Positions 1 to 15,608 of a stretch of 64,000 nucleotides of DNA are shown here, piece by piece. A program made the position numbers and the translations under genes. Source of the stretch: Actinosynnema sp. ALI-1.44 (GTDB lineage: Bacteria > Actinomycetota > Actinomycetes > Mycobacteriales > Pseudonocardiaceae); NCBI RefSeq assembly GCF_001984155.1, contig NZ_MTQO01000052.1, positions 186,001-250,000 on the forward strand, read 5' to 3'. The notes under the pieces are model-generated. The model was not told the DNA's origin. It did not search any database and saw nothing but the letters and a program-made list of their open reading frames with translations. Position 1 is the first letter of the stretch. Every line of letters starts with the position of its first letter.

Positions 1-1
1 C

Positions 2-319
2 AGCGAGCGGATCGCGTACTACATCACGGCGATCCGCGACCTCCAGTACCGCCAGCCCGCCGCCAACGACGTCATGCTGCAGGCATACCCCCACGCACCG
101 CAGCTCATGGAGATCTGCCGGGCCGCGGGGGAGATCAACGACGAGCTCATCGCGGCGGGCCGCGTCTCCGGCGCGCTACGGCCGGAGTTCACGGCAGGCG
201 ACCTCCACGCGTACATCCACGACAACGCGCTCGCCCTCAAGCACGGACCTCGCCCTGCCCGTGACGACTACGACCGCCGGACCAGGTTCTTCCTGGACGG
301 GATCCGCGCCGGAAGGTGA
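2..319 (+). CDS. TetR-family regulator, C-terminal fragment (5' end outside window)
   Basis: The reading frame is open from base 2 and ends at a TGA at 317-319, so the gene is cut by the window edge and its DNA-binding N-terminus is not visible. The visible 105 residues are helical, and the ending YDRRTRFFLDGIRAG resembles the last helix of many actinobacterial TetR-family ligand-binding domains. The gene converges with the DUF-type gene at 328-705. As it lies beside the catabolic island it is a candidate repressor for the twin palindromes at 3384-3397 and 3480-3493, but nothing in the sequence proves that. The family call rests on the C-terminal pattern alone. Confidence 0.6.
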   Translation, partial: SERIAYYITAIRDLQYRQPAANDVMLQAYPHAPQLMEICRAAGEINDELIAAGRVSGALRPEFTAGDLHAYIHDNALALKHGPRPARDDYDRRTRFFLDGIRAGR

Positions 320-327
320 CGGACTCG

Positions 328-705
328 TCAGAAGTCGTCGGTGCCCGCGAGTTCCCGCTCGAAGTGGTCCGCGTTCGCGACGATCTGCTTCAGCACGGGT
401 TCGAAGTCCTCACGCGCGCTCAGCTCCGTCACCGGGACGCTGTGCTTCAGCAGCGCGACGCCGTCGACCACCTCGACCTCGCCGACCTTCTCGGCACCGG
501 CCAGCTCACGGAGCTTGCCCATGTCGATCTTGTCGGCCCAGCCGACGGGCGAGGACAGCTCCAGCGTTTCCGGCTCGGCGTGCACCGAGACCTGCTGGGT
601 ACGACCGCCTTCGGTGTCCAGGCGGAATCGCAGCCAGTCGTCGTTCTCCTCCAGCACCTCGTACCGGATTCGCACGTAGTTGATCACTTCGGTCCAGCTG
701 GTCAC
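328..705 (-). CDS. Small cytosolic protein of unknown function (YbjN/chaperone-like fold possible)
   Basis: A 125-residue acidic protein with no signal peptide or membrane segment. I chose the GTG at 705 (protein begins VTSWTEVINYV) because a GGAGAGG ribosome binding site lies 8 nt upstream; an in-frame GTG at 726 would place that site inside the gene. The pattern of a short helix, then a beta sheet (RIRYEVL, WLRFRLD, QQVSVHA) and a C-terminal helix recalls YbjN-like or type III chaperone-like small proteins, but the match is only impressionistic. It stands alone between the TetR fragment and the P450 operon. No function is assigned. Confidence 0.7.
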   Translation of the reverse strand: MTSWTEVINYVRIRYEVLEENDDWLRFRLDTEGGRTQQVSVHAEPETLELSSPVGWADKIDMGKLRELAGAEKVGEVEVVDGVALLKHSVPVTELSAREDFEPVLKQIVANADHFERELAGTDDF

Positions 706-772
706 CCGCGTCGCCTCTCCGATCACACCCGCTCGCGCGGCGAAAGCATCTCATGCCGGTCCGGGCGGCACT

Positions 773-790
773 ACCGGGGACTTCCCCGGT
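773..790 (-). terminator. Hairpin just after the P450 stop codon
   Basis: The arms ACCGGGG and CCCCGGT are perfect complements around a four-base loop ACTT, two bases beyond the P450 stop. There is no T-tract, which is usual for actinomycete terminators. It probably ends the glutamine-synthetase-like/P450 transcript. Confidence 0.5.
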
Positions 791-791
791 T

Positions 792-2030
792 TCACCGTCG
801 GCCGACTTCGACCGGCAGCTCCTTGATCCCGTTGACGAAGTTCGACCGCACCCTCGGCACGTCACCAGTCAACCGCATCCCCGCTGCCCGCGGCACCAGT
901 TCCTCGAACATGATCCGCATTTCGGTACGGGCGAGCAGGCCGCCGAGGCACACGTGCGGCCCGCCTTTGCCGAAGGTCACGTGGTCGTTGCGGGTCCTGG
1001 TGACGTCGAAGGTGTCCGGGTCGTCGAAGACCTCCTCGTCGCGGTTGGCCGAGCCGTACCACATGACGACCTTGTCGCCCGCCTTGATCTGTTTGCCGCC
1101 TAGTTCGACGTCGCGGACCGCCGTCCTCCGGAAGTGGTACACCGGCGTGCCCCAGCGCAGGAACTCCTCCACCGCGCCCGGGATGAGCGACGGGTCGTCA
1201 CTGAGTTTGGCCAGCTGGGCGGGGTGTTGCAGCAGCGCGAGCATCGCGTGGGTGATCGCGTGCCTGGTCGTCTCGTTGCCCGCCACCACCAGCAGGAGGA
1301 AGTAGTTGTCGAAATCCCTCGCCGACAACGGGACGCCGTCACGCGGTGTGTCGTTCACGAGTTTGGACACCAGGTCCGCGCCGGAGACACCCCGGCGTTG
1401 CCTGGCCAGTTCCCGCCCGTACGCGAACACCTCGAGGGACGCCGGGGAGCGGAACGGCAGGTCCCGGTAGCGATCGCTCTCCGCGCTCCCGAGCAGGACG
1501 TCCGCGTAGTCCGGGTCGGTGTTGCCGATGATCCGGTTGCCCCAGTCGATCAACTGCCGGGTGTCGCTTTCCGGCACGTCCAGCAACCGGGCGAGGACGT
1601 TGATCGGGAAGTCCGCGGCCACCTCGGCCACGAAGTCGAAGCGGCCCTTGGCGAACGCGGCGTCCAGCGTCCTCACCGTCAGTCCCCGCAGGAACTCCGC
1701 GTACTGGTTGATCACGGTCGGCCCGAACTGGCGCTGCAACAGGCCCCGCAGCGCCCGGTGCCGCAGGCCGTCCATCTCCAGCATCGACGCGCGGATGGCG
1801 ATCTGGTCGTCGTCGACCTCTTCGAGGTTGACGAACTTCGCCGAGGTGAACGTCTCGGTGTCCTTGCTGATCCGCACCACGTCCGCGTGCTTCGTGATCG
1901 CCCAGAAGCCGGAGCTCGGCTCGGGTTCCGGCTGCCAGTACACCGGGTCGTTGTGGCGCAACGTGTGGAACATCCGCCACGGCGTCACGCCGTCGGTGAA
2001 GTTGTCCAGGTTGACCAAGTCGACGTCCAT
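792..2030 (-). CDS. Cytochrome P450
   Basis: A 412-residue soluble bacterial P450, normal length for the class. The I-helix oxygen-activation motif AGNETTRH is at residues 250-257, the K-helix ExxR pair is E289/R292, and the heme loop FGKGGPHVC ends at the thiolate ligand Cys361. The ATG at 2030 follows a GAGGT-type ribosome site and lies only 6 nt after the stop of the glutamine-synthetase-like gene, so the two are one transcript. It needs electrons from a ferredoxin and reductase, neither of which is encoded nearby. In this context it may hydroxylate the ring or side chain of the amine substrate, which is inference; the sequence does not reveal the substrate. Confidence 0.93.
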   Translation of the reverse strand: MDVDLVNLDNFTDGVTPWRMFHTLRHNDPVYWQPEPEPSSGFWAITKHADVVRISKDTETFTSAKFVNLEEVDDDQIAIRASMLEMDGLRHRALRGLLQRQFGPTVINQYAEFLRGLTVRTLDAAFAKGRFDFVAEVAADFPINVLARLLDVPESDTRQLIDWGNRIIGNTDPDYADVLLGSAESDRYRDLPFRSPASLEVFAYGRELARQRRGVSGADLVSKLVNDTPRDGVPLSARDFDNYFLLLVVAGNETTRHAITHAMLALLQHPAQLAKLSDDPSLIPGAVEEFLRWGTPVYHFRRTAVRDVELGGKQIKAGDKVVMWYGSANRDEEVFDDPDTFDVTRTRNDHVTFGKGGPHVCLGGLLARTEMRIMFEELVPRAAGMRLTGDVPRVRSNFVNGIKELPVEVGRR

Positions 2031-2036
2031 GCGACC

Positions 2037-3359
2037 TCACAGGTGATAGGCGTACTCCGTGAACTCCCAGTCCGTGACGTGGCGGCGGAAGCGCGCGACC
2101 TCGTCCCGTTTGTAGGCGAGGAACGACGTGGTGAAGTCCTTGCCGAGGATCTCGGTCAGCTCGATGTCCGCTTCGAGCGCGTCCAACGCGGTGGACAGGG
2201 TCGACGGCAGGGCAGGCGATTTGCTGGTGTCGTAGCCGTAGCCCTCCAGCGGCGCGGGCGGTTCCTCACCGGCCAGCACGCCGAGCAGCGCGGCGGCGAT
2301 GGTCGCGGCGATCGCGAGGTACGGGTTCGCGCTGGCGTCCCCGAGGCGCAGTTCGAGGCGCGCGCCCGCGCCGCGTTCCGGCGGGATGCGGATCATCGCG
2401 CTGCGGTTGTCCAGTCCCCAGTCGATCAGCCACGGCGCGAGGGTGTCGGGGCCGAACCGCTTGTAGGAGTTGATGGTCGGGTTGACGAGCGCGGCGAGCG
2501 CCGGTGCGTGCCGCAGGACGCCCGCGATCGCGTGGCGTGCCATTGTGGACAGTCCATGCGGCGCGGCCGGGTCGTCGAAGCAGTTGCCCGTGTCGTCGAC
2601 GCAGGACAGGTGGAAGTGGAAGCCGGAACCGCCCGCCTCGGCGAAGGGCTTGGCCATGAACGTCGCCAGCCTGCCTTCCTTGCGGGCCAGCTCCTTCACC
2701 GCCGCCTTGAACCAGAACGCACGGTCGGCCGCGGACATCGCCGCGGAGTGCTGGAGGTTGACCTCGAACTGCGCGCCGTCGTACTCGTGGTTTCCGCCGG
2801 TGACGCCGATCCCGAGTTCGCGCAGGCTGCGCAACACGCGCAGCAGGTGGTTGTCGGGGTCGGCGCGCAGTCCGGCGGTGTAGATGGCGCCGGGAACCTC
2901 GGTGTAGCGGCGCCAGCCGCGCGGCGATGACGGGTCGGGGTCGCACAGGAAGTACTCGAGTTCCGGGCCCACGACCGGGTTCATGCCGTGGTCGGCCGCG
3001 CGGGCCAGCACCGAACGCAGCACCTCGCGGGGTGACTCCGGGCTGGTCACGTCGCCGAGGACCCAGGCGACGCCCGGCTCCCACGGCACAGCGACCACAG
3101 TGGACAAGTCGGGGCGCACCGTGATGTCCGGCAGCCCGGCGTCCAGCCCGCCGGGCACCTGGATCGTCTCACCCTGCGGGGTCGTGTGGTACACCGCGCG
3201 GCAGAACGAGAGCCCGTGTTCGACGAGCGACGGCAGGTGCTCGAGCAACACGTCCTTGGCACGGTCCGTGCCGAGCATGTCCGGGTAGGTCACCCGGACC
3301 ACGTCGATCCCCGCCGCGGACAGCCTGCCGACGGGATCCACACTGTCTTGAGCACTCAC
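2037..3359 (-). CDS. Glutamine synthetase-like gamma-glutamylamide synthetase
   Basis: A 440-residue member of the glutamine synthetase superfamily, of the PuuA/GlnA3/GlnA4 kind rather than the housekeeping GlnA. Family landmarks are present: the metal-binding GPELEYF strand, the GSGFHFHLSC histidine motif, NPTINSYKRF, and the C-terminal RLELRLGDASANPYLA signature. Such enzymes use ATP to join the gamma-carboxyl of glutamate to an amine. The GTG start at 3359 has GAGGAG upstream; the open frame continues far upstream to 4307 but is antisense to another gene there. The gene has its own promoter with an overlapping palindrome. With the PuuC-like, PuuD-like and permease genes across the promoter it points to gamma-glutamylation of an imported amine. 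The amine is not known from sequence. Confidence 0.88.
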   Translation of the reverse strand: MSAQDSVDPVGRLSAAGIDVVRVTYPDMLGTDRAKDVLLEHLPSLVEHGLSFCRAVYHTTPQGETIQVPGGLDAGLPDITVRPDLSTVVAVPWEPGVAWVLGDVTSPESPREVLRSVLARAADHGMNPVVGPELEYFLCDPDPSSPRGWRRYTEVPGAIYTAGLRADPDNHLLRVLRSLRELGIGVTGGNHEYDGAQFEVNLQHSAAMSAADRAFWFKAAVKELARKEGRLATFMAKPFAEAGGSGFHFHLSCVDDTGNCFDDPAAPHGLSTMARHAIAGVLRHAPALAALVNPTINSYKRFGPDTLAPWLIDWGLDNRSAMIRIPPERGAGARLELRLGDASANPYLAIAATIAAALLGVLAGEEPPAPLEGYGYDTSKSPALPSTLSTALDALEADIELTEILGKDFTTSFLAYKRDEVARFRRHVTDWEFTEYAYHL

Positions 3360-3383
3360 CGACGTCTCCTCGGACAGCTCATC

Positions 3384-3397
3384 GTTTGGGGTCAAAC
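3384..3397. promoter_or_regulatory. Palindromic operator A (GTTTG-N4-CAAAC), leftward promoter
   Basis: GTTTGGGGTCAAAC forms a perfect 5-bp inverted repeat with a 4-bp spacer. On the minus strand it overlaps the last two bases of the TACTGT -10 box and covers the expected transcription start, the usual place for a repressor. It is the twin of 3480-3493; the centres are 96 bp apart. Confidence 0.65.
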
Positions 3398-3424
3398 AGT
3401 AAGCCGTCGACCACCCGGGTTCAA
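3396..3424 (-). promoter_or_regulatory. Leftward promoter of the glutamine-synthetase-like/P450 operon
   Basis: On the minus strand a TTGAAC -35 box (3424-3419) is followed after exactly 17 bp by a TACTGT -10 box (3401-3396). The start codon is 37 bp beyond the -10. The fit to the housekeeping sigma consensus and the mirror-image arrangement with the rightward promoter make this convincing. Confidence 0.65.
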
Positions 3425-3450
3425 GGGGCGCGACCACTTTCCGCATCCTA

Positions 3451-3479
3451 TTGACCCCGACGCCCGGCCGCCCTACATT
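3451..3479 (+). promoter_or_regulatory. Rightward promoter of the decarboxylase/meta-cleavage arm
   Basis: A TTGACC -35 box (3451-3456), a 17-bp spacer and a TACATT -10 box (3474-3479). The predicted transcript start near 3486 falls inside the second palindrome and is only about 12 nt from the first ATG (3498), which supports the downstream TTG at 3522 as the real start of the next gene. Confidence 0.65.
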
Positions 3480-3493
3480 GTTTGAGGCCAAAC
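3480..3493. promoter_or_regulatory. Palindromic operator B (GTTTG-N4-CAAAC), rightward promoter
   Basis: GTTTGAGGCCAAAC has the same 5-bp arms as operator A and differs only in the spacer. It abuts the 3' edge of the TACATT -10 box. Both divergent promoters therefore carry one copy at the same place, implying one repressor controls both arms. Confidence 0.65.
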
Positions 3494-3521
3494 GACTATG
3501 CCGCCCGCGAGGAGCACCCCC

Positions 3522-4304
3522 TTGACCAGCGGATTCTTCTACCCGAAGACGGCGACAGGTGAGTCGTCGCTGATCCCGGCGCCGCCATGGCACTACTCGG
3601 GCGACCTGCTGACGATCGAGTACCGCACGGATCCGGACCGCGTGCGCGACCTGCTGCCCGAGCCGCTCGAACTCGCCGAGGACGACCCGGGCGCGGTCGC
3701 GCTGATCTGGGCGGACTGGCAGTCCTGTTCGGACAGCCGGGAGGAACTGCTCGATCCCGTGCGGTCGCAGTACAAGGAAGCCTTCGTGGTGGTTCGCTGC
3801 CGTTACGACGGCACGCACTACTCCCGCTGCGTCTACATCTGGGTGGACAAGGACTTCGCCGTCGCCAGGGGAATCCACCAGGGCTATCCGAAGAAGTTCG
3901 GTTCGATCCACATGACCAGGCCACACCCGTACGGCCCGGCGCCGAGGCTCGAGGCCGGTGCCCGGTTCGGTGCGACACTCGCCGCGGCGGACCGAAGGCT
4001 TGCTCAGGCGGTGGTCACGTTGCGGGAACCGTCGGACACCAACGGGTTCGTCAACGGCCACCCGATGGCCCACCACCGGACGCTGCCGTCCATCACCGGA
4101 GACGGCCTGGCGCTCGACGAACTGATCGAATCCGGTGCGAAGTCGTTCGAGGCGGGACCGGCCTGGCGGGGCGAGGCGGACCTGGAGCTGTTCGAGGCCC
4201 CGACCGAGGAACTCGCCCGGCTGGTGGTCCGCGAGCCGATCGCGGCGTACTTCCGGCAGCTCGGAGTGGTGTGGGACGGCGGCAAGGTCTTGGAGAAGCG
4301 TTGA
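3522..4304 (+). CDS. Acetoacetate decarboxylase-family protein
   Basis: A 260-residue protein of the acetoacetate decarboxylase superfamily. The diagnostic region is GYPKKFGSIHM, where one of the paired lysines forms the Schiff base in characterised members. I prefer the TTG at 3522 because AGGAG lies 7 nt upstream and the transcript probably begins near 3486; the ATG at 3498 is the alternative. Members decarboxylate beta-keto acids or act as aldolase/dehydratase-like enzymes, so it may handle a keto acid released by ring cleavage (inference). The final Arg codon and TGA stop coincide with the right end of the inserted TnpB element at 4301, so the native C-terminus may have been changed. Confidence 0.85.
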   Translation: MTSGFFYPKTATGESSLIPAPPWHYSGDLLTIEYRTDPDRVRDLLPEPLELAEDDPGAVALIWADWQSCSDSREELLDPVRSQYKEAFVVVRCRYDGTHYSRCVYIWVDKDFAVARGIHQGYPKKFGSIHMTRPHPYGPAPRLEAGARFGATLAAADRRLAQAVVTLREPSDTNGFVNGHPMAHHRTLPSITGDGLALDELIESGAKSFEAGPAWRGEADLELFEAPTEELARLVVREPIAAYFRQLGVVWDGGKVLEKR

Positions 4305-4310
4305 CATCCT

Positions 4311-4330
4311 CCCTGCCCTAAAGGGCGGGG
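4311..4330 (-). ncRNA. Right-end hairpin, presumed 3' scaffold of the TnpB guide (omega) RNA
   Basis: CCCTGCCC and GGGCGGGG pair (one G-U) around TAAA, overlapping the tnpB stop codon. In studied TnpB systems the guide RNA is processed from this end and its 3' part comes from the DNA just beyond the element. Here that would be the last codons of the decarboxylase gene, minus strand, from 4300 downward. The RNA is inferred and was not observed. Confidence 0.45.
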
Positions 4331-5394
4331 ATTCCCTTGGTCGCCCATGGGTTTTCCTGCTTCATCGTCGACTGCCCCGAACGGAGGTTTCCCCGTTGAG
4401 GTCTTACACCGTCTCCACAGGCTGTCACCGCCAGCCCGGCGGCCAGAATGTTATGCGCCGCGTTGACATCACGATCGTGGCTGGTGCCGCACCGGCAAGA
4501 CCACAACCGCACGGTCAACGGCATCCGCTCAACGAGCGCACCACACGCCGAACACACCTTGGACGAGGGAAACCAGCGATCCACGACCACCAGGTCACGC
4601 CCATGCCACTCGGCCTTGTATTCGAGCAGGGTGCGAAACTGCCGCCAGGCTGCGTCGCTGATGGCACGGGCCAAGCTGTGATTCTTGACCATGTTACGCA
4701 CGGTCAGATCCTCGATCACGATCGTTTGGTTCTCACGAACGAGCCGAGTGGTCAGCTTGTGCAGATAGTCGCGGCGGCGGTCGGCGATCCGGGCATGCAC
4801 ACGAGCAACCTTGTGGCGGGCCTTGGCTCGGTTCGCCGACCCCTTCACCCTCTTGGCCAAGGCGCGTTGGGCGCGGGCCAGCCGAACACGGTCGGCCCGC
4901 TCGTGCCGGGGATTGGCGATCTTTTCCCCGGTCGACAGGGTAAGCAGGGAGTCAAGCCCTGCGTCGATGCCGATCGCACCCGATGCCGAGGTCTGTTCGA
5001 TCACGTCGTCGCACACCAGCGACACAAACCAGCGGCCAGCCGCGTCCTGCGACACCGTCACCGTCGACGGGGACGCCCCTCCGGGCAACGGACGCGACCA
5101 CACGATCGCCAGCGGCTGATCCATTTTGGCCAGGGTCAGCGTGCCTTCGCGCCACCTGAACGCGCTGGTGGTGTACTCCGCCGAACGCCGCGACTTCTTC
5201 TTGCTCTTGAAACTCGGGTATCGGGCGCGCTTTCCCCAGAAGTTGGTGAACGCGACCTGCAAATGCCGCAGCGCCTGCTGCAGCGCCATGTTGTAGACCA
5301 GCCGGACACACCCGAACGTCCGGGCAAGCTCAGCGGCCTGCCGCAGGGTCGGATAGAAGCGGTACTTGAACGCCCGCTTCACAACCTTGGCCAC
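4318..5394 (-). CDS. tnpB: TnpB, RNA-guided nuclease family, with an internal deletion
   Basis: A 358-residue TnpB. It starts at the GTG at 5394 (VAKVVKRAFKYRFYP), the usual N-terminus. RuvC-type catalytic residues are all present: D144 (GIDAGL), E228 (VIEDLTV) and D309 (HDRDVNAA), and the zinc finger cysteines are C281, C284, C300 and C302. However, VYN at residues 33-35 runs almost directly into LQQALRHLQ at 38; related actinobacterial TnpBs have about 45 more residues here, so a block of the N-terminal nucleic-acid-binding lobe is missing in frame. It may be inactive or altered. The gene is antisense to the host operon and separates it from its promoter by about 1.1 kb. Confidence 0.88.
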   Translation of the reverse strand: MAKVVKRAFKYRFYPTLRQAAELARTFGCVRLVYNMALQQALRHLQVAFTNFWGKRARYPSFKSKKKSRRSAEYTTSAFRWREGTLTLAKMDQPLAIVWSRPLPGGASPSTVTVSQDAAGRWFVSLVCDDVIEQTSASGAIGIDAGLDSLLTLSTGEKIANPRHERADRVRLARAQRALAKRVKGSANRAKARHKVARVHARIADRRRDYLHKLTTRLVRENQTIVIEDLTVRNMVKNHSLARAISDAAWRQFRTLLEYKAEWHGRDLVVVDRWFPSSKVCSACGALVERMPLTVRLWSCRCGTSHDRDVNAAHNILAAGLAVTACGDGVRPQRGNLRSGQSTMKQENPWATKGIPAL

Positions 5395-5547
5395 GACCCA
5401 CAACCTAGCGGGCCAACCAGTGAACCTCGCGATGACACGCCGGTAGACACCGATCCACCGTGGCGCATCGGCTTTCCCTGCCCTACACCGCAGAGATTCC
5501 GTTTCCTCTCCAGTCCGAAGGCCGAATTCATCCACGGAAGGAATCCG

Positions 5548-6981
5548 ATGATCGAGCACTGGATCGGCGGCCACCGCGTCGCATCGGCCGAGACGTTCAC
5601 GGACGTCTCGCCCATCGACGGCCGTGTCCTGACCGAGGTGGCCCGCGGTGGCCCGGCCGAGGTCGACGCGGCGGTCGCCGCCGCGACAAAGGCGTTCCCG
5701 GCGTGGGCGCGGACTTCGCGGACCAGGCGCGCGGAGATCCTGCACGCGATCGCCGACGGCGTGGAGAAACGCCTGGAAGAGCTGGCGATCACGGAAACCG
5801 AGGACAACGGCGCACTGCTGCGGTCGCACCGGCGTGGTGTGATGCCCCGGGTCGCGCACAACTTCCGGTTCTTCGCCGACTGGCTGCTCCAGTTGGAGCA
5901 CGAGGACTTCGTCACGCGCGGGCACATCAACCACGTGTCGTGGGACCCGGCCGGGCCGTGTGCGTTGATCACGCCGTGGAACGCGCCGCTGATGCTGGCC
6001 ACGTGGAAGATCGCGCCCGCGCTCGCTGCCGGTAACACCGTTGTGCTCAAGCCCGCCGAGTGGTCGCCGCGTACAGCGTCGCTGCTGGGCGAAATCGCCG
6101 CCGAGGCTGGTCTGCCCGACGGCGTGTACAACGTCGTGCAGGGATACGGCGACGAGGTCGGCGGCCCGTTGGTCGCCCACCCGGACATCCGCCGGATCAG
6201 CTTCACCGGCTCCGTGCCGACCGCGCGGCGCATCACGGCCGCCGCGGCGGCCAACCTGACGCCACTCAGCCTTGAGCTCGGCGGCAAGTCCCCGCTGCTG
6301 GTGTTCGCCGACGCTGACATGGACCTGGCGGTCGACCTGGCCGTCGAGCAGTACGACAACGCCGGGCAGGTGTGCCTCGCCGCCACCAGGATCCTGGTCG
6401 AGCAGTCGATCGCCGAAGAGTTCACCGAACGGTTCGTCGCCAAGGCTTCCACGGTGCGCCAGGGAGATCCGCGCGACGAGGCCACGGACATCGGACCGAA
6501 CATCCACGAACGCCAGTTCACCAAGATCGACGGCTACGTGCAGCGGGCGCTGGCCTCGGGTGCTCGTGCGGTGGTCGGCGGCGGTCCGAACACCGACCTC
6601 GGCGGCCTGTACTACCGGCCGACGCTGCTGACCGACGTCGCCCAGGACTCCGAGATCGTGCAGGAGGAGGTCTTCGGGCCGGTGCTGACGCTGCAGACGT
6701 TCACCAGCGAGGACGAGGCGGTCCGGCTGGCCAACGACACGCGGTTCGGACTGGCCGCGACCCTGGCGACCGGCGACCACGACCGCGCCGACCGCGTGAC
6801 ACAGCAACTCGTCGCGGGCACGGTGTGGGTGAACTGCTTCTTCGTCCGTGACCTGCAGGCGCCGTTCGGCGGGTCACGGCAATCCGGGGTCGGCCGCGAA
6901 GGCGGGAACTGGAGTTTCGACTTCTACTGCGACCTGAAGAACACCGTCAGCGCACCGAAGGGGTGGTCCGATCATGGGTGA
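5548..6981 (+). CDS. hpaE: Aldehyde dehydrogenase, HpaE-like (carboxymethyl-hydroxymuconate semialdehyde type)
   Basis: A 477-residue NAD-dependent aldehyde dehydrogenase. Catalytic residues are visible: the Asn of ITPWNAPL, the Glu of LELGGKSP and the nucleophile Cys in NAGQVCLAA. The ATG at 5548 follows GGAAGGAA with good spacing. The order with the next two genes (dehydrogenase, extradiol dioxygenase, FAH protein, overlapping by 8 nt each) matches homoprotocatechuate meta-cleavage modules, so oxidation of the ring-cleavage semialdehyde to the diacid is the likely job. Since the TnpB insertion it may rely on read-through or on a promoter in the element's flank; none was recognised. The general enzyme class is certain, the exact substrate inferred. 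Confidence 0.85.
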   Translation: MIEHWIGGHRVASAETFTDVSPIDGRVLTEVARGGPAEVDAAVAAATKAFPAWARTSRTRRAEILHAIADGVEKRLEELAITETEDNGALLRSHRRGVMPRVAHNFRFFADWLLQLEHEDFVTRGHINHVSWDPAGPCALITPWNAPLMLATWKIAPALAAGNTVVLKPAEWSPRTASLLGEIAAEAGLPDGVYNVVQGYGDEVGGPLVAHPDIRRISFTGSVPTARRITAAAAANLTPLSLELGGKSPLLVFADADMDLAVDLAVEQYDNAGQVCLAATRILVEQSIAEEFTERFVAKASTVRQGDPRDEATDIGPNIHERQFTKIDGYVQRALASGARAVVGGGPNTDLGGLYYRPTLLTDVAQDSEIVQEEVFGPVLTLQTFTSEDEAVRLANDTRFGLAATLATGDHDRADRVTQQLVAGTVWVNCFFVRDLQAPFGGSRQSGVGREGGNWSFDFYCDLKNTVSAPKGWSDHG

Positions 6982-7858
6982 GATCGTCGGCGCGGGCCTG
7001 CTCGCCCATGTCCCGACCATCGTGCTGCCCGAAGCGACACGGCTGGAGCTCAACGAGGGCAAGGAAATCACCCTCGTCACCGGGCTGCGGCAGTTGCGCG
7101 AGGACGTGTTCGAGAAGCTGGACTACGACACCGTCATCGTGATGGACTCGCACTGGGCCACGACCGTGGAGTTCGTGGTGACGGCGCAGAACCGGCGCGC
7201 GGGACTGTTCACCTCGGAGGAACTGCCGCGCGGGATGTGCCGGATGCACTACGACTTCCCCGGCGATCCCGAACTGGCGCGGGCGATCAGCGGGTTCGCG
7301 GGCAAGCACGGCACGTGGATCACCCCGATCGACGACGACTACCTGCCGATCTACTACGCCACGATCAACCTGTGGAAGTTCCTCGGCGAAGGACTGCCGG
7401 ACAAGCGGTGGATCAGCATCGGCGTCTGCCAGACGGGCGACATGGAGGACCACCTGCGACTGGGTCGCGCGGTCGCCGACGCGGTCGCCACGACCGACCG
7501 CAAGGCGATCGTGATCGCGTCCGGCGCGCTGTCCCACACCTTCTGGTCGCTGCGCGAACTGCGTGATCACGAGGCGAGCGATCCGGTGCACATCCGTACC
7601 CCGGAGGCGCGCGAGGCAGACCACGAACGGATCGCGTGGTTCAAACAGGGCAGGCACGACGAGGTGCTCCGCACCATGCCCGAGTTCTACGAGTACAAGC
7701 CGGAAGCCAAGTTCGCCCACTACCTGATGATGGCGGGCGCACTCGGCGAGGAGAAGTGGACGGCACCGGCACGCCAGTACGGCGAGTACGAGAACTCGGT
7801 CGGCACCGGCCAGGTCCACCTGTGGTTCGACCGTCCCGAAGGAGGGTGGCATGCCTGA
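6974..7858 (+). CDS. hpaD: Class III extradiol ring-cleavage dioxygenase, HpaD-like
   Basis: A 294-residue LigB-superfamily protein. It contains the N-terminal GAGLLAHVP histidine and the MDSHW motif (histidine after a beta strand), typical of the non-heme iron(II) site in 3,4-dihydroxyphenylacetate 2,3-dioxygenases of the LigB type. It would open a catechol ring next to the hydroxyl pair using O2. The ATG overlaps the end of the aldehyde dehydrogenase gene by 8 nt and its own end overlaps the next gene by 8 nt, so the three are translationally coupled. 2-Aminophenol-type substrates are also known in this superfamily, so the substrate remains open. Confidence 0.87.
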   Translation: MGEIVGAGLLAHVPTIVLPEATRLELNEGKEITLVTGLRQLREDVFEKLDYDTVIVMDSHWATTVEFVVTAQNRRAGLFTSEELPRGMCRMHYDFPGDPELARAISGFAGKHGTWITPIDDDYLPIYYATINLWKFLGEGLPDKRWISIGVCQTGDMEDHLRLGRAVADAVATTDRKAIVIASGALSHTFWSLRELRDHEASDPVHIRTPEAREADHERIAWFKQGRHDEVLRTMPEFYEYKPEAKFAHYLMMAGALGEEKWTAPARQYGEYENSVGTGQVHLWFDRPEGGWHA

Positions 7859-8699
7859 GTTCCGCCGGATCCTGCTCGACGGCGCGGTCGTCGAGACCGT
7901 CCGCGACGGTGACGAGCTCGTCGCGGGCGACGGCCGTCGTGTCAAGACCGCCGAGGCGACACACCTGCCGCCGGTCGTTCCGTCCAAAGTGATCGCCGTA
8001 CACCTCAACCACCGCAGCCGGGTGGAGGAGTTCCAGATCAAGCTGGCGGACACGCCGACGTACTTCCACAAGCCGACCTCGGCGTTGAACTCGCACAGGG
8101 GCGCGGTCGTGCGGCCCGAGGGCTGCAAGTGGCTCAACTACGAGGGCGAAGTCGCCATCGTCATCGGGCGGACGTGCCGCAACGTCTCCCCCACCGACGC
8201 CGGGGCGTACATCGCGGGCTACACCATCGCCAACGACTACGGCCTGCACGACTTCCGCGACACCGACGCCGGTTCGATGTTGCGCGTCAAGGGATCCGAC
8301 ACGTTGTGCCCGCTCGGCCCCGGGCTGGTGACCGACTGGGACTTCCGCGGCAAGTACCTGCGGACGTACGTCAACGGGAGCGTGGTCCAGGACGGGTCGA
8401 CCGACGAGATGAAGTGGGACATGCACTACCTCGTCGCCGACATCGCCAGGACGATCACGCTGAACCCCGGTGACGTGCTGCTGTCCGGCACCCCGGCCAA
8501 CTCCCGGCCGGTGCAGCCGGGTGACGTGGTCGACGTGGAGGTCGAAGGCCTCGGCAGGCTGACCAACCACATCGTCTCCGGCCCCACGGCGATCCGCGCG
8601 GACGTCGGCGCGCAGCCGACCGAGTCGGAGGAGGTGCTGTCCACGGCGCTGGGCGGCGACTGGGAGTTCCGCGGCATCCGCCCACCCAGGAAGGCCTGA
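7851..8699 (+). CDS. Fumarylacetoacetate hydrolase-family protein (HpaG-like isomerase/decarboxylase)
   Basis: A 282-residue member of the FAH superfamily. The metal-binding glutamates are in LNYEGEVAIVIG, followed by IANDYGLHDFR and the C-terminal GDVLLSGTPANS motif that is nearly invariant in the family. In meta-cleavage pathways such proteins decarboxylate, hydrate or isomerise the dienoate formed after semialdehyde oxidation. It is coupled to the dioxygenase by an 8-nt overlap and its TGA shares one base with the ATG of the permease. The family also contains acylpyruvate hydrolases, so the exact reaction is inferred from context. Confidence 0.87.
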   Translation: MPEFRRILLDGAVVETVRDGDELVAGDGRRVKTAEATHLPPVVPSKVIAVHLNHRSRVEEFQIKLADTPTYFHKPTSALNSHRGAVVRPEGCKWLNYEGEVAIVIGRTCRNVSPTDAGAYIAGYTIANDYGLHDFRDTDAGSMLRVKGSDTLCPLGPGLVTDWDFRGKYLRTYVNGSVVQDGSTDEMKWDMHYLVADIARTITLNPGDVLLSGTPANSRPVQPGDVVDVEVEGLGRLTNHIVSGPTAIRADVGAQPTESEEVLSTALGGDWEFRGIRPPRKA

Positions 8700-10003
8700 T
8701 GGACACCAGGACCGCGACGCTCAAGCCCAACGCGTTAGGTGTCTTGGGGATTCTGTTCTTCGTGTTGTCGGCACAGGCGCCGCTGACCGGGATCGCCGGT
8801 GCCATGCCGATCGCCATCGCACTGGGCAACGGTCCCGGCGTCCCGGCCGCGTACGCCGTCGCCGGTCTGGTGATCCTGCTGTTCTCGGTCGGTTTCGTGA
8901 CCATGGGCCGTCATGTCGTGAACGCGGGTGCGTTCTACACCTACATCGGCAAAGGACTCGGCAAGACCGCCGGCCGGGTCAGCGCGGGCGTCGCGTTGTT
9001 CGCGTACTGCACGATCCAGGCCGCGATGTACGGGCTGTACGGCGCCACGGTCAGCGGGCTGATCCCGATCGGGGTGCCGTGGTGGGTCTGGACACTGGTG
9101 ACCATGGTGGTCGTGCAGGTGCTCGGCTCTGCCGGGATCGAGATCGGGGCGCGGGTGCTCGCGGTGTTCGTCCTGGCCGAGTTCAGCATCCTGCTGGTGT
9201 TCGGCTTGGTCACACTCGTCAGCGGGGGTGGGCCGGAGGGGCTCGGGGTAGGCGCGAGCTTCTCCCCCAGCGCGCTGTTACAGGGCGCTCCCGGGGTCGC
9301 GTTGATGTTCGCGGTGGCGTCGATGTTCGGCTTCGAGGCCACCGCGATCTACGGCGAGGAGGCCAGGGAGCCGCGGAAAACCGTGCCACGGGCCACGTAT
9401 CTCGCCGTTGTCGTGGTCACCGGGTTCTTCGCCTTCACCTCCTGGATGCTGGTGTCCGCACATGGTGCCTCGAAGGCCGTTGACGCTGCCGGTGCCGCGT
9501 TGGGCGGCGGCGACTCCACGGTGTTCGTGTTCGCACCGATCGCCGAGCAGTTCGGCGGCTGGGTCACCAGCGTCCTGCCGATCCTGCTGGCGACGTCGTT
9601 GTTCGCCGGGATACTGGCGTTCCACAACTCCGCCAACCGGTATCTGTTCTCACTCGGGCGTGATCGCCTGCTGCACAGCAAAGTCTGCTCGCTCAACAAG
9701 CGCAAGGCGCCGTGGTTCGCCGGGTTCGTGCAGACCGTGATCGCGATCGTGCTGGTCGTGCCGTTCGCCGTGGCGGGTCAGGATCCTGTACTGACGTTGT
9801 TCTCGTGGTTCAGCGGTGTGGCCGTGCTGGCCATGATGGTGCTTTATCTGCTGACTTCGGCGTCGGTGGTCGTCTTCTTCCGGCGTACCCGGCTGGACAC
9901 GCGCCCGTGGCAGACGATGATCGCGCCCGGTCTCGGTGCGCTCGGCATCGCGGGGGCGATCGCGGTGATTCTGGCCAACTTCACCACGTTGATCGGAGGT
10001 TGA
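8699..10003 (+). CDS. APC-superfamily amino acid/amine permease
   Basis: A 434-residue integral membrane protein with about twelve hydrophobic segments. The N-terminal LFFVLSAQAPLTGIAG segment and FGFEATAIYGEEAREP, the conserved loop after helix 6, place it in the amino acid-polyamine-organocation superfamily. Its start codon overlaps the preceding stop (TGATG), so it is translated with the meta-cleavage genes. Position in a cluster with gamma-glutamylation enzymes makes it the probable importer of the amine, as PuuP is for putrescine; this is inference from context. Confidence 0.88.
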   Translation: MDTRTATLKPNALGVLGILFFVLSAQAPLTGIAGAMPIAIALGNGPGVPAAYAVAGLVILLFSVGFVTMGRHVVNAGAFYTYIGKGLGKTAGRVSAGVALFAYCTIQAAMYGLYGATVSGLIPIGVPWWVWTLVTMVVVQVLGSAGIEIGARVLAVFVLAEFSILLVFGLVTLVSGGGPEGLGVGASFSPSALLQGAPGVALMFAVASMFGFEATAIYGEEAREPRKTVPRATYLAVVVVTGFFAFTSWMLVSAHGASKAVDAAGAALGGGDSTVFVFAPIAEQFGGWVTSVLPILLATSLFAGILAFHNSANRYLFSLGRDRLLHSKVCSLNKRKAPWFAGFVQTVIAIVLVVPFAVAGQDPVLTLFSWFSGVAVLAMMVLYLLTSASVVVFFRRTRLDTRPWQTMIAPGLGALGIAGAIAVILANFTTLIGG

Positions 10004-10004
10004 C

Positions 10005-11468
10005 GTGACGCACGACGAGTGGCTCGCGCTGGCGAAAACCCTGGAGTTCCCCGGCGCGCACCACATAGACGGCGGCGACGTGACCGGGACGCGCACGTTC
10101 CCGGTGACATCCCCGCGCGACGGCCAGGTCCTCGCCGACGTGGCCGACGCGCAGCAGTCCGAAGTGGATGGCGCGGTGGCCGCGGCCCGGTGGGCTTTCG
10201 ACGAAGGCCCGTGGCCCCGGCTGGCGCCCGCCGAACGCGGCCTGGTGCTGCTGAGGATCGCGGACCTGCTGGAACAGCACAGGGAAACGCTTGCGCTGAC
10301 GATCAGCCTGGAGATGGGCAAACCGATCTCCGAGGCGTACGGCATCGAACTGCGCGCCACGATCAACACGTTCCGGTGGTACGGCCAACTCGCGGACAAG
10401 CTCAACGACGCCGTGCCGCAGACCGCGTCGGATTCCTTGGCGCTGGTCACCCGTGAACCCGCCGGGGTGGTGGGTGCCGTTGTGCCGTGGAACTTCCCGT
10501 TGACGTTGGCCTCGTGGAAGATCGCTCCGGCGTTGGCGGCCGGGTGCACGGTCGTGCTGAAGCCGTCGGAGTTCTCGCCGTTGTCGGCGTTGACGGTCGG
10601 CAGGCTGGCCACCGAGGCCGGGCTGCCGCCGGGCGTGCTGAACGTGGTCGCGGGCGACGGACCGACCGCGGGGCGGGCGATCGGGCTGCACCCGGACGTC
10701 GACGTGCTCGCGTTCACCGGGTCCGGCGCGGTCGGCCGGGAATTCCTGCGGTACTCGGCGGATTCCAACCTCAAGCGGGTGTGGCTGGAGCTGGGCGGCA
10801 AGTCGCCGAACATCATCCTGCCGGACGCCCCGGACCTCGACCGCGCCGCCGCGACGGCCGCGTGGGGCATCTTCTTCAACCAGGGCGAGATGTGCACGGC
10901 GCCGTCACGCCTGCTCGTGCACTCGTCCGTGGCCGAGCAGGTGACCGAGGCGGTGGTGCAACGGGCGCGCACGCTGCGCGTCGGGGATCCGCTCGACCCG
11001 GTCACCGAGATGGGTGCGTTGGTCAGCACGGGGCATGTAGATCGCGTGCTCGGCTACGTCCAGAGCGGGCAGGACGAGGGCGCGCGGTTGCGCTCAGGTG
11101 GTTCACGCGCGGGCAATTCCGTGCAGCCCACGGTGTTCGACCAGGTGACGCCGGAGATGCGGATCGCGCGGGAGGAGATCTTCGGGCCGGTGTTGTCGAT
11201 CATGACGTTCGACACCGTCGACGAGGCCGTGTCGCTGGCGAACGGCACCGAATACGGCCTGGCAGCGGGATTGTGGACGTCGGATCTGTCCACAGCGCAC
11301 ACGGTGTCGCGTGCGTTGCGGGCCGGGACGGTGTGGGTCAACTGCTACGAGGAGGGTGACCTGACCGTGCCCTTCGGCGGGATGAAGCAGTCCGGCAACG
11401 GGCGGGACAAGTCGTGGCACGCACTGGAGAAGTACACCGAGCTGAAGACGACGTGGATCCAGTTGTGA
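10005..11468 (+). CDS. Aldehyde dehydrogenase, PuuC-like
   Basis: A 487-residue aldehyde dehydrogenase with complete catalytic set: Asn in VVPWNFPL, Glu in LELGGKSPN and Cys in NQGEMCTAPS. It begins at the GTG at 10005, one base after the permease stop. It differs from the dehydrogenase at 5548 and most resembles the gamma-glutamyl-aminobutyraldehyde dehydrogenase type, though that subgroup is hard to tell by eye. The immediate 3' neighbour, overlapping by 4 nt (GTGA), is a gamma-glutamyl hydrolase, exactly as expected if it oxidises a gamma-glutamylated aldehyde to the acid before deglutamylation. No amine oxidase (PuuB) is present in the window. Confidence 0.85.
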   Translation: MTHDEWLALAKTLEFPGAHHIDGGDVTGTRTFPVTSPRDGQVLADVADAQQSEVDGAVAAARWAFDEGPWPRLAPAERGLVLLRIADLLEQHRETLALTISLEMGKPISEAYGIELRATINTFRWYGQLADKLNDAVPQTASDSLALVTREPAGVVGAVVPWNFPLTLASWKIAPALAAGCTVVLKPSEFSPLSALTVGRLATEAGLPPGVLNVVAGDGPTAGRAIGLHPDVDVLAFTGSGAVGREFLRYSADSNLKRVWLELGGKSPNIILPDAPDLDRAAATAAWGIFFNQGEMCTAPSRLLVHSSVAEQVTEAVVQRARTLRVGDPLDPVTEMGALVSTGHVDRVLGYVQSGQDEGARLRSGGSRAGNSVQPTVFDQVTPEMRIAREEIFGPVLSIMTFDTVDEAVSLANGTEYGLAAGLWTSDLSTAHTVSRALRAGTVWVNCYEEGDLTVPFGGMKQSGNGRDKSWHALEKYTELKTTWIQL

Positions 11469-12130
11469 GGCCGTTGATCGCGATCCCGGCCCGGTTCTCC
11501 GCGTCGGCGTCCGCGTTGCGCCACGCGGCGGAGGTCAACGCGCGAGCGCTGGTCGAAGCCGTGTGGCGGGCAGGCGGCGAGCCCGTGTCGATCCATCCCG
11601 CCGCAGGTGAGGTCGCGTCCCGGCTCAAGCGGTTCGACGGCGTGCTCCTACCGGGCGGAGGGGACATCTCACCGGATCGCTACGGCGGCGCGGCGCACGA
11701 GTCGGTGTACGACGTCGACGCGATCCAGGACGAGTTCGACCTGGCCGTCGCCGGGGAAACGGTGAACTCGGGCAAACCGTTGCTGGCGATCTGCCGTGGC
11801 CTCCAGGTGGTGAACGTCGCGTTGGGCGGCACGCTGCACACGGACGCACCGGGGCACCGGCATGTCGTGCACCCGGTCGCGCTGAGCGGGACGGTCGCCG
11901 AGATCACTGGCGTCGAGAAGATCGACGCCTCGTGCTACCACCACCAGCACATCGACACGCTGGGCGCGGGCCTGGACGTCACCGCACGCGCGGCGGACGG
12001 CACCGTCGAAGCTGTGGAGCTGACGGGGAGCGCGGGCTGGTTCGTCGCCGTGCAATGGCATCCCGAAGATTCCGCGGCCACGGACCCCGCTCAGCAACGT
12101 CTGTTCGACGCGCTGGTCGGTCAGGCCTGA
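11465..12130 (+). CDS. puuD: PuuD-like gamma-glutamyl hydrolase (class I glutamine amidotransferase fold)
   Basis: A 221-residue peptidase C26-type protein. The nucleophile is the Cys in LAICRGLQVVNV, and the partner histidine and glutamate are in AVQWHPEDS. PuuD removes glutamate from gamma-glutamyl-GABA. The GTG at 11465 overlaps the preceding stop and gives VRPLIAIPAR, the expected first strand; a longer frame to 11414 would overlap the dehydrogenase. Its stop runs 10 bp into the end of the convergent MarR gene. The presence of both a glutamylating and a deglutamylating enzyme is the best evidence for a gamma-glutamyl cycle in this island. Confidence 0.88.
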   Translation: MRPLIAIPARFSASASALRHAAEVNARALVEAVWRAGGEPVSIHPAAGEVASRLKRFDGVLLPGGGDISPDRYGGAAHESVYDVDAIQDEFDLAVAGETVNSGKPLLAICRGLQVVNVALGGTLHTDAPGHRHVVHPVALSGTVAEITGVEKIDASCYHHQHIDTLGAGLDVTARAADGTVEAVELTGSAGWFVAVQWHPEDSAATDPAQQRLFDALVGQA

Positions 12131-12699
12131 TTCTTCGGGCGCCTGCCGCTGCGGCGGGGCGGCGGGGTGCTGCCCGCCAGCAGCTCCTGACGGCGTTCGT
12201 CGCCGTACATCTCGATCTGGCGCACGACCTTGCGCAGCGATTCGGCGGTGCCGCGGCACTCCTCCAGGCTGAGCTGTTTGGTCACGAAGACCTCTTCGGC
12301 GTTGAACGCCGGGAAGATCCGCCGCATCAGCCGTTCGCCGTCCTCGGTCAGGCTGAGCAGCACGAGCCTGCCGTCCGACGGGTGCCCGGCGCGCCGGACG
12401 AAACCGCGTGACTCCAGCGTTTTCGCCACACCGGTGAGGGTTCCCTTGGAGATCCCGGCTTCCTCGGCGACGTGCCTGGTCTCCGACTCGCCCCAGATCC
12501 AGATCACCCAGAGCACCACGAAGGTCGTCCACGACAGGTCGACCTCGCGCAGCACAGTGCCTTCCACGTGCTGCCGGACGGCCATCGCCGCGCGGTGGAT
12601 GTTGGCGACCGCGGCCATCTGCTCGCGGCTGATCGAGATCCCGCCGAGCTTGGCCTCGGCCAGTTTCTCGGCCTCACTGATCGATCGGTGGCCTGGCAC
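12121..12699 (-). CDS. MarR-family transcriptional regulator
   Basis: A 192-residue winged-helix protein with the MarR landmarks: the recognition-helix region ISKGTLTGVAKTLESRG and the wing HPSDGRLVLLSLTEDG. The GTG at 12699 is preferred because a TACACT -10 box ends 6 nt upstream, as in leaderless actinomycete messages; the frame is open to 12783. A 10-bp inverted repeat covers the -35 region, suggesting autoregulation. It closes the catabolic island convergently and is a candidate ligand-responsive repressor for it, though the operators at 3384 and 3480 do not match its own palindrome. Confidence 0.85.
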   Translation of the reverse strand: MPGHRSISEAEKLAEAKLGGISISREQMAAVANIHRAAMAVRQHVEGTVLREVDLSWTTFVVLWVIWIWGESETRHVAEEAGISKGTLTGVAKTLESRGFVRRAGHPSDGRLVLLSLTEDGERLMRRIFPAFNAEEVFVTKQLSLEECRGTAESLRKVVRQIEMYGDERRQELLAGSTPPPRRSGRRPKNQA

Positions 12700-12705
12700 G
12701 ACGAC

Positions 12706-12746
12706 AGTGTACTGGCCGGTGATCGGCCTGGACGTTCGTCCAGGCC
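12706..12746 (-). promoter_or_regulatory. Promoter and palindrome upstream of the MarR gene
   Basis: The arms GGCCTGGACG (12725-12734) and CGTCCAGGCC (12737-12746) are perfect reverse complements separated by TT. The inner arm overlaps the expected -35 position of a promoter whose -10 is TACACT (12711-12706, minus strand). The location fits negative autoregulation by the MarR protein. Confidence 0.55.
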
Positions 12747-12907
12747 GGACACAGTGGGGATCTCCCACCCGGCCGTCCATCAAGGTAGGTTAGGCTTGGA
12801 CGGCCGCTACCAGGCCACGACGATCGCGACCGCCCAGATGCTGCAGGCCCCGGATGTCGTTGGCGTCCCTTGGCTGCTGGACCAGCTCAAGCCGACGCTC
12901 GCCAAGG

Positions 12908-15508: not shown

Positions 15509-15608
15509 GATGAGATCAAATCACCCTGATGGGGTGAGGCTCGCTCACCCCGTCCGCCCGGAGAGTGGGCGTCGAACACGGGCACTGACGTACCAGGGAG
15601 CACTCAGC

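Follow-up and report, generated by a model that had tools for sequence, protein, structure and literature searches.

In the Puu pathway of putrescine degradation (PuuA, PuuB, PuuC and PuuD), a gamma-glutamyl ligase acts first and gamma-aminobutyric acid (GABA) is the product. The gene cluster considered here, which spans positions 792-12699 of a 64,000-nucleotide stretch from Actinosynnema sp. ALI-1.44 (contig NZ_MTQO01000052.1, positions 186,001 to 250,000; the whole stretch is called the window below), resembles that pathway in that it would begin with a ligase, finish with PuuC- and PuuD-like enzymes and yield GABA. However, it contains no PuuB gene, and the proposed source of its gamma-glutamyl-aminobutanal is an aromatic ring and not putrescine. 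The nearest families assigned here to cleavage of the ring, to oxidation of the semialdehyde and to decarboxylation/isomerization are those of the 4-hydroxyphenylacetate (4-HPA) or homoprotocatechuate meta pathway, and both routes would end in pyruvate and a four-carbon aldehyde, as that pathway is set out in the accessible part of PMC12718150. In the 4-HPA pathway the side chain is acetate and the aldehyde is succinic semialdehyde, whereas an aminoethyl-glutamate side chain and gamma-glutamyl-4-aminobutanal are proposed for this locus; furthermore, an ADC-family (acetoacetate decarboxylase) protein is present, and HpaB/C, HpaF, HpaH and HpaI are not in the window cluster.

A glutamine synthetase (GS)-like ligase is also found in the aniline and 1-naphthylamine systems, where AtdA1 or NpaA1 glutamylates the amine and thereby enables the oxygenase, according to the available portion of PMC11335346. 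Those systems combine the ligase with the glutamine amidotransferase (GATase)-like AtdA2 and a Rieske dioxygenase, and they form a catechol before ring cleavage; here, in contrast, a cytochrome P450 stands in for the Rieske oxygenase, and we propose that the glutamyl group is retained through ring cleavage. Similarly, the meta pathway for phenol in Saccharolobus includes ADC-superfamily proteins, Sso1221/1222, that have been proposed as the pyruvate aldolase (PMC7820114, in the part accessible), although its substrate is phenol and neither an amine nor glutamylation is involved. Finally, gastropods glutamylate monoamines instead of oxidizing the amine, but their gamma-glutamyl-dopamine is an inactivation product of an animal, and ring cleavage is not described in the accessible text of that account (PMC6454038).

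We think it likely, from sequence comparison, that the Actinosynnema cluster serves to degrade tyramine, dopamine or both, while glutamate masks the amino group. Every named protein was placed by Pfam and NCBIfam; names such as HpaE-like or PuuC-like denote the nearest family, as all pathway proteins fall below the NCBIfam equivalog cut-offs. An organization into two divergent operons is plausible, with the GS-like ligase and P450 genes running leftward and the ADC, HpaE, HpaD, FAH, APC, PuuC and PuuD genes running rightward; the rightward genes overlap or almost abut. The features are as follows:

792-2030, minus strand: cytochrome P450 of 412 residues (Pfam p450, E 4e-21), proposed gamma-glutamyl-tyramine 3-hydroxylase
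2037-3359, minus strand: GS-like, putative gamma-glutamyl-amine ligase (Gln-synt_C, E 1e-98)
3384-3397, no strand: candidate operator GTTTGGGGTCAAAC, roughly 25 bases upstream of the ligase gene start
3480-3493, no strand: candidate operator GTTTGAGGCCAAAC, before the ADC-hpaE-hpaD-FAH-APC-puuC-puuD operon
3522-4304, plus strand: ADC-family protein, MppR/Sbi00515-like (Pfam ADC, E 4e-59), proposed hydratase-aldolase releasing pyruvate
4305-5545, minus strand: inserted TnpB element (TnpB models; gene at 4318-5397), no pathway role
5548-6981, plus strand: HpaE-like 2-hydroxymuconate-semialdehyde dehydrogenase, an aldehyde dehydrogenase (ALDH; nearest NCBIfam HpaE)
6974-7858, plus strand: HpaD-like extradiol dioxygenase of the LigB fold (nearest NCBIfam HpaD)
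7851-8699, plus strand: HpaG-like FAH-family isomerase/decarboxylase (FAA_hydrolase)
8699-10003, plus strand: APC-family permease (AA_permease), proposed amine importer
10005-11468, plus strand: PuuC-like ALDH, proposed gamma-glutamyl-4-aminobutanal dehydrogenase
11465-12130, plus strand: PuuD-like gamma-glutamyl hydrolase (Peptidase_C26, E 6e-48), proposed to release GABA and glutamate
12121-12699, minus strand: MarR-family regulator (Pfam MarR), convergent, candidate reader of the operator

A preliminary description of this DNA had named the ligase, P450, ADC, HpaE-, HpaD- and FAH-like, APC, PuuC- and PuuD-like genes as one set. All are indeed found together, along with the MarR gene, and all have been placed, but the TnpB gene between ADC and hpaE had been overlooked. 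The ligase gene appears to start at GTG 3359, judging from a GAGGAG upstream, the ADC gene probably at TTG 3522 (an ATG at 3498 is a possible alternative) and the PuuD-like gene presumably at a GTG.

On the proposed route, the amine would be imported by the APC permease or, in other lineages, formed by a tyrosine/3,4-dihydroxyphenylalanine (DOPA)-decarboxylase-like enzyme. The GS-like ligase would then make gamma-glutamyl-tyramine, which the P450, served by a ferredoxin and a reductase, would hydroxylate on the ring to gamma-glutamyl-dopamine. The HpaD-like enzyme would open the still glutamylated compound by 2,3-cleavage of its ring, the HpaE-like enzyme would oxidize the semialdehyde, and the HpaG-like enzyme would decarboxylate and isomerize the product. 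Hydration and retro-aldol cleavage, the jobs of HpaH and HpaI, would fall to the ADC-family protein and yield pyruvate and gamma-glutamyl-4-aminobutanal, from which the PuuC-like enzyme would form gamma-glutamyl-GABA and the PuuD-like enzyme would release GABA and recover the glutamate. The glutamyl mask would also block closure of the ring-cleaved amine into a betalamate-like ring.

The chemistry of this route was checked by calculation. Gamma-glutamyl-dopamine plus O2 and O, less CO2, plus H2O and less pyruvate gives C9H16N2O4, which is gamma-glutamyl-4-aminobutanal, and among side chains of 0-3 carbons only the two-carbon chain yields a 4-carbon aminoaldehyde. Ring C2 would be lost as CO2 and C3-C5 as pyruvate, so that C6, C1 and the side chain remain; starting from dopamine, this remainder is 4-aminobutanal. 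As PuuC of E. coli acts on gamma-glutamyl-4-aminobutanal, the presence of PuuC- and PuuD-like enzymes makes sense without PuuB. A PuuB-type FAD oxidase was not found among the window cluster genes by Pfam and NCBIfam, and no genome-wide search was made for it. The preliminary description had treated this as a gap, which is better seen as a step that is not needed, since PuuC and PuuD would act after ring cleavage on gamma-glutamyl-4-aminobutanal. We also rejected a Puu cluster that has lost PuuB: the enzyme is unneeded on the proposed route and the linkage to ring cleavage, described below, is too strong.

The individual proteins fit these assignments to differing degrees. The ligase falls below every GS equivalog cut-off, and against the PuuA gamma-glutamylputrescine synthetase model (NF045547) it scores 248 bits, under the cut-off of 650. 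Leucine occupies the position of the GlnA flap glutamate in 97 of 98 relatives, and the FDGSS-type latch motif of GlnA is absent from the ligase in the alignment, whereas a GS paralogue in the same genome retains the flap glutamate and a DGSA latch; we take both elements to be functional in GlnA. Three rows of that alignment (own_L003, own_L005 and own_L006) were mistranslated and are disregarded. A true, ammonia-using glutamine synthetase was rejected on the loss of the flap residue. The P450 gene lies 6 bases downstream of the ligase gene, and its product keeps Cys361 and Thr254 in 82/82 relatives; we assume the usual roles for both, Thr254 presumably being the I-helix threonine.

Of the ring-cleavage enzymes, the HpaE-like protein reaches 547 bits with the HpaE model (the next model gives 477; the curated cut-off of 638 is not reached). 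Its best PDB match is 2d4e, 5-carboxymethyl-2-hydroxymuconate semialdehyde dehydrogenase (E 9e-121), followed by 4u3w, 2-aminomuconate semialdehyde dehydrogenase, and in the alignment the window protein retains two arginines of the latter that, we presume, bind the muconate end there. For the FAH protein, the general FAH family comes first among NCBIfam models (227 bits) and the HpaG C-terminal half second (211, cut-off 276); the best PDB match is HpaG (1gtt, E 3e-65), HpcE (1wzo) is also matched, and E98, E100 and D129, which we take to be the metal ligands of the family, are kept in 96/96 relatives. The HpaD-like protein scores 135 bits against a curated cut-off of 316, and its best PDB match is 8iq8, a 3,4-dihydroxyphenylacetate 2,3-dioxygenase (E 2e-24), with 2-aminophenol 1,6-dioxygenase as the next relative. 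His12, His60 and Glu244 are kept in 100/100, 100/100 and 99/100 relatives, and the second-sphere residues Tyr128 and His188 in 100/100 each; the ligand positions are those named for the Pseudomonas enzyme in the accessible part of PMC5291488, mapped through the PDB alignment. The PuuC-like protein is nearest to PuuC (559 bits, cut-off 850; next StyD, 483). The PuuD-like protein is nearest to PuuD (74 bits against a cut-off of 266), with 3fij, 7d4r and PuuD itself (6vtv) as PDB matches; it was left out of the conserved-residue counts, as truncated open reading frames left many gaps in its rows.

The ADC-family protein matches MppR best (4jm3, E 4e-49), then 6eej and 4zbo, which we take to be Sbi00515. 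Sbi00515 has aldolase-dehydratase activity. The Schiff-base lysine (Lys132 in the 268-residue frame) is kept in 96/96 relatives and, with the similarity to MppR and Sbi00515, suggests membership of the pyruvate aldolases of the ADC superfamily. In Saccharolobus, growth on phenol raised the expression of MppR-like ADC proteins 77-82-fold, and the role of final aldolase was proposed for them (PMC7820114, as far as that report is accessible). The ADC-family enzyme of the window probably performs both the hydration and the aldol cleavage.

The relatives of HpaD, HpaE and HpaG, with the metal ligands of HpaD and HpaG conserved, place the cluster with 4-HPA-type ring cleavage. They would also suit the scheme of the preliminary description, in which an amine is glutamylated, oxidized at the alpha carbon by the P450 and PuuC and set free as a hydroxyphenylacetate-like acid, which a normal homoprotocatechuate pathway would then degrade, the more so as P450s can hydroxylate beside an amide nitrogen. 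However, alpha-hydroxylation would liberate the aldehyde, so that PuuD would have nothing to do, the second ALDH is nearest to PuuC and not to phenylacetaldehyde dehydrogenase, all three Hpa relatives fall below the 4-HPA cut-offs, and the GABA-aminotransferase-like gene of five distant loci (see below) would be unexplained. Furthermore, HpaB/C, HpaF, HpaH and HpaI are missing from the window cluster genes. Genome-wide, the HpaI family gave a single match, on another contig and below the cut-off; a profile search for HpaF was silent, as was its control, and HpaH and HpaB/C were not searched genome-wide. We regard that scheme, with its order of steps, as unlikely, because a gamma-glutamylated monoamine offers Puu chemistry no free amine and PuuD would merely return the amine; its suggestion that the P450 supplies an oxidation step still stands. 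A plain 4-HPA cluster was likewise rejected, with several genes missing and scores under the cut-offs.

Regulation appears to tie the parts of the cluster together. An inverted repeat, GTTTG-N4-CAAAC, was spotted by eye in the sequence between the ligase and ADC genes and then tested by pattern counts. It has 2 matches in the 64 kb, both in the divergent promoter region, with 0 expected, and GTTTGRGGYCAAAC occurs twice in the 11.7 Mb actinobacterial genome, both times in that promoter region, while a reversed control pattern occurs once. The site GTTTGAGGCCAAAC is conserved, with one spacer change, in the alignment with the related locus L035. Across 133 loci (2.66 Mb), which are related so that the counts are not independent, there are 148 exact sites in 93 loci, as against 0 or 1 match for each of ten control repeats. 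All but six of these sites (142/148) lie within -40 to 250 bases upstream of the estimated start of a cluster gene: ligase (53), ferredoxin (54), ADC (13), HpaE (11) or PuuC (11). Because the same repeat precedes the ligase, ring-cleavage and PuuC operons, these look like one regulon, and a single regulator probably controls the whole pathway through GTTTG-N4-CAAAC. MarR and TetR proteins are candidates. Among the 61 loci described below, MarR genes occur in 9/61 and TetR genes in 55/61; MarR also stands beside ligase and decarboxylase genes in L189-L193 and L233-L239. No palindrome or short word was common to the ligase-ADC and MarR upstream regions.

The preliminary description had taken the cluster as one functional unit, and its proposed check of co-occurrence has borne this out, with core linkage in 60/61 loci and 22/22 genomes. 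Many soil actinobacteria share the cluster. A ligase query against genome contigs gave 314 relatives, of which the best 80 were kept; two loci were dropped (L058 as a duplicate of L036, and L059 as a duplicate of L038), and the 61 counted loci are those of the remaining 78 with more than 9 kb to the left and more than 5 kb to the right of the ligase. This sample is mostly Streptomyces and is neither independent nor random. HpaE, HpaD, FAH and ADC genes are each present in 60/61 loci, and the P450, a small ferredoxin and a ferredoxin reductase each in 55/61, in the identical 55 loci. The APC gene is found in 52/61, PuuC in 44/61 and PuuD in 25/61, although 10 of the 17 PuuC misses are truncated no more than 0.5 kb from where the locus ends and PuuD frequently lies beyond the flank. 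The single locus without ring cleavage, L110, retains ligase, APC, PuuC, PuuD and MarR genes. Four plasmid-collection records, from Streptomyces canus, S. lunaelactis and two Embleya strains, carry the set with some variation; in S. lunaelactis a decarboxylase is present and the P450 absent.

Within the window's own family (297 genomes, with genera labelled g8, g17 and g20 below), 22 genomes contain the HpaD at E 1e-60 or better, and the ligase (E 1e-120 or better) is present in all 22. Starting from HpaD, the ligase lies within the stretch in 15 of 23 neighbourhoods (in L042 only a 44% relative); five of the eight ligase-less neighbourhoods belong to g17, where the ligase lies elsewhere and adjoins a pyridoxal phosphate (PLP)-dependent decarboxylase. 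This separation in five g17 genomes, and the g8 ligase that occurs without ring cleavage, could be taken to mean that polyamine glutamylation and aromatic ring cleavage are two unrelated pathways and merely chance neighbours here. Against this stand the linkage and genome co-occurrence just given, the absence of PuuB from the window cluster genes and an operator common to both parts. Even in genomes that keep the parts separate, the site is present in exact form or with a single mismatch: genome G016 has the exact site at both of its loci (L051 and L193), and the split ligase loci L189-L192 have 2-3 one-mismatch sites each, as against 0-1 for control palindromes. Chance neighbourhood is therefore very improbable in our view. 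In the g17 loci without the ligase (L049-L051), a carboxylesterase-family gene is divergent from ADC, with the operator between them in L049 and L050.

The source of the amine is suggested by a decarboxylase family (c15) that stands beside the ligase or inside the cluster in 10 loci (L034, L040, L043-L048, L054 and L055) and beside the ligase also in L189-L193. The closest NCBIfam models to it are those of tyrosine decarboxylases (TIGR03811 and TIGR03812), although it scores well under the cut-off of each, and its best PDB matches are 5hsi, 6ebn (a non-canonical aromatic amino acid decarboxylase) and 7cwx; 5hsi and 7cwx are, we assume, bacterial tyrosine decarboxylases. The window's genome has a 63% relative on another contig, and a relative occurs somewhere in 10 of the 12 cluster-bearing genomes or records searched. 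Since this tyrosine-decarboxylase-like gene is found with the ligase in relatives, it points to an amine derived from tyrosine or DOPA. Together with the chemistry, it also upholds the earlier proposal that the substrate is probably an amine of the phenethylamine type, with tyramine and dopamine as examples. The gene contents suggest tyramine for loci with the P450 and DOPA or dopamine for P450-less loci with the decarboxylase. In the P450-less g20 loci L043-L048, an FAD-dependent oxidoreductase (amine-oxidase/DAO-like) lies near the decarboxylase.

Distant relatives extend this picture. Of 35 non-own matches at the level of the phylum, 14 were fetched (L194-L207). L194 carries the complete Streptomyces-type cluster; in the other 13, beside HpaD, we found the ligase and the P450 in 10 each, ADC in 9, a PLP-dependent decarboxylase and a class III aminotransferase in 5 each, a PuuC-type ALDH in 3 and PuuD in 2. 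The two PDB matches of the aminotransferase at E 1e-80 are PuuE and GabT; in the window's own genome, a GABA transaminase scores above its cut-off. L198 packs almost the entire predicted route into 18.4 kb, with genes for the decarboxylase, ligase, P450, HpaD, HpaE, FAH, ADC, a PuuC-like ALDH (580 bits to PuuC, next 493), a class-I GATase, the aminotransferase and a further ALDH. The decarboxylase of L199 is closest to the DOPA decarboxylases 4obu and 7xin in the PDB, with diaminobutyrate decarboxylase as its best NCBIfam model. A class-I GATase is present in three of the distant loci (L198, best PDB 7d54; L200; L201) and near the cluster in 10 of the loci reached with the ligase query (L060, L075, L088, L093, L103, L123, L126, L129, L133 and L137); it is perhaps a substitute hydrolase for PuuD.

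An aniline-like substrate would imply a different scheme: the ligase would glutamylate an aniline or aminophenol, the P450 would remove the amine in an oxidation that leaves a catechol, and a GATase-like protein would be a safety valve hydrolysing the glutamyl-anilide. The opening logic would be that of AtdA1-A2 and NpaA1 (PMC11335346, in its available portion), and the next PDB relatives of the HpaD- and HpaE-like proteins are enzymes of 2-aminophenol and 2-aminomuconate semialdehyde metabolism, as given above. However, no Rieske oxygenase gene is present among the window cluster genes, a P450 being found instead, and PuuC and the tyrosine-decarboxylase-like and GABA-aminotransferase-like neighbours of relatives would be unexplained. 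We hold this explanation to be quite improbable, and the aniline option of the preliminary description is the less likely one.

Several observations weigh against the masked-amine route to GABA. The window cluster genes include no separate isomerase for 5-carboxymethyl-2-hydroxymuconate, although its isomerization can be spontaneous for the natural substrate (PMC12718150, in the part accessible). In the window, L035-L038 and L054, the P450 gene has neither a ferredoxin nor a reductase gene beside it, and L040 has a ferredoxin only; in the window's own genus, redox partners mostly do not adjoin the P450. The P450 itself is missing from 6/61 loci, from 8/8 g20 loci and from 5/5 g17 ring-cleavage loci, where hydroxylation is unexplained and DOPA may be the source. 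At the other end of the route, some loci have no PuuC or PuuD, and PuuC is absent from 7/61 loci despite at least 1.5 kb visible past the last cluster gene. The decarboxylase occurs in 0/61 loci. For the distant aminotransferase, the top NCBIfam models are two general families, with GABA transaminase third, and among its five loci the PuuC-type ALDH is present in L198 only and PuuD in none. The exact operator is missing from 40/133 loci, including 12/13 distant loci and all 7 g8 loci, and one-mismatch sites in the g8 and distant loci are hardly commoner than controls (6 as against 0-5). L039 is a second HpaD copy with no ligase or FAH nearby, the ligase of that genome lying elsewhere, and the HpaD relatives of L056 and L057 (50-55% identity) stand in other surroundings. 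Finally, 23 of the 45 ligase-bearing family genomes, all g8, do not have this HpaD, and the g8 loci L233-L239 combine decarboxylase, MarR and ligase without ring cleavage in 7/7 examined, one of which comes from a genome that carries HpaD elsewhere. As the g8 ligase occurs without ring-cleavage genes, the ligase would serve elsewhere too, presumably in a separate use of aromatic-amine glutamylation.

A second P450 family, of 398 residues, is found in 13 loci (L031, L072, L076, L077, L085, L101, L105, L111, L114, L116, L117, L119 and L131). In the four maps inspected (L031, L072, L076 and L119), its gene sits together with a ferredoxin gene between those for APC and TetR; an LLM-type oxidoreductase accompanies it in L031 and L072. 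It is perhaps involved in O-demethylation of a methoxylated amine.

The TnpB element parts the rightward operon exactly at the ADC/hpaE junction. L035, which is 91.6% identical over 3401-4304, has no insert, and its ADC and hpaE genes overlap by 4 bases; the insert is also absent from L036, L037 and L038. The insertion looks recent, because none of these four loci has it. No TnpA gene was seen within the insert, and the TnpB protein seems shortened near the N-terminus compared with the usual TnpB, to judge from skipped profile positions. Rfam gave no match in window 1-20000. Elsewhere in the window, a radical SAM protein adjoins a protein with two glycosyltransferase domains (16531-20690), a pair conserved in L035. 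At 29659-31350, a response-regulator receiver domain is fused to a pyridine-nucleotide-disulphide reductase, and the adjoining gene (28229-29656) encodes cyclic-nucleotide-binding and histidine-kinase-type ATPase domains in one protein.

In summary, it seems reasonably probable that Actinomycetota, from Streptomyces to distant lineages, share a pathway in which a catecholamine is never deaminated but is kept gamma-glutamyl-masked throughout and is broken down to pyruvate and GABA, with the glutamate recycled. This covers hydroxylation by the P450, extradiol cleavage and an ADC-family hydratase-aldolase, and in Streptomyces, as in parts of the window's family, the genes would form a single regulon. 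The parts are of known kinds; as far as could be found, their combination and the proposed order are undescribed, and in the open-access literature (most subscription journals and all bioRxiv preprints lie outside it) we found no description of bacterial catabolism of gamma-glutamyl-tyramine or gamma-glutamyl-dopamine. If this reading is correct, PuuC and PuuD have been reused as the tail of an aromatic pathway, and functions can be proposed for three proteins whose genes are repeatedly found together in Streptomyces, in many genomes: the P450, the GS-like ligase and the ADC-family enzyme. MppR-like ADC proteins would gain a possible place in metabolism, as aldolases of meta pathways, and GTTTG-N4-CAAAC would be a candidate binding site for a regulator. 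Furthermore, it would represent a new degradation of biogenic phenethylamines, by ring cleavage of a masked amine, in which GABA carries the nitrogen onward.

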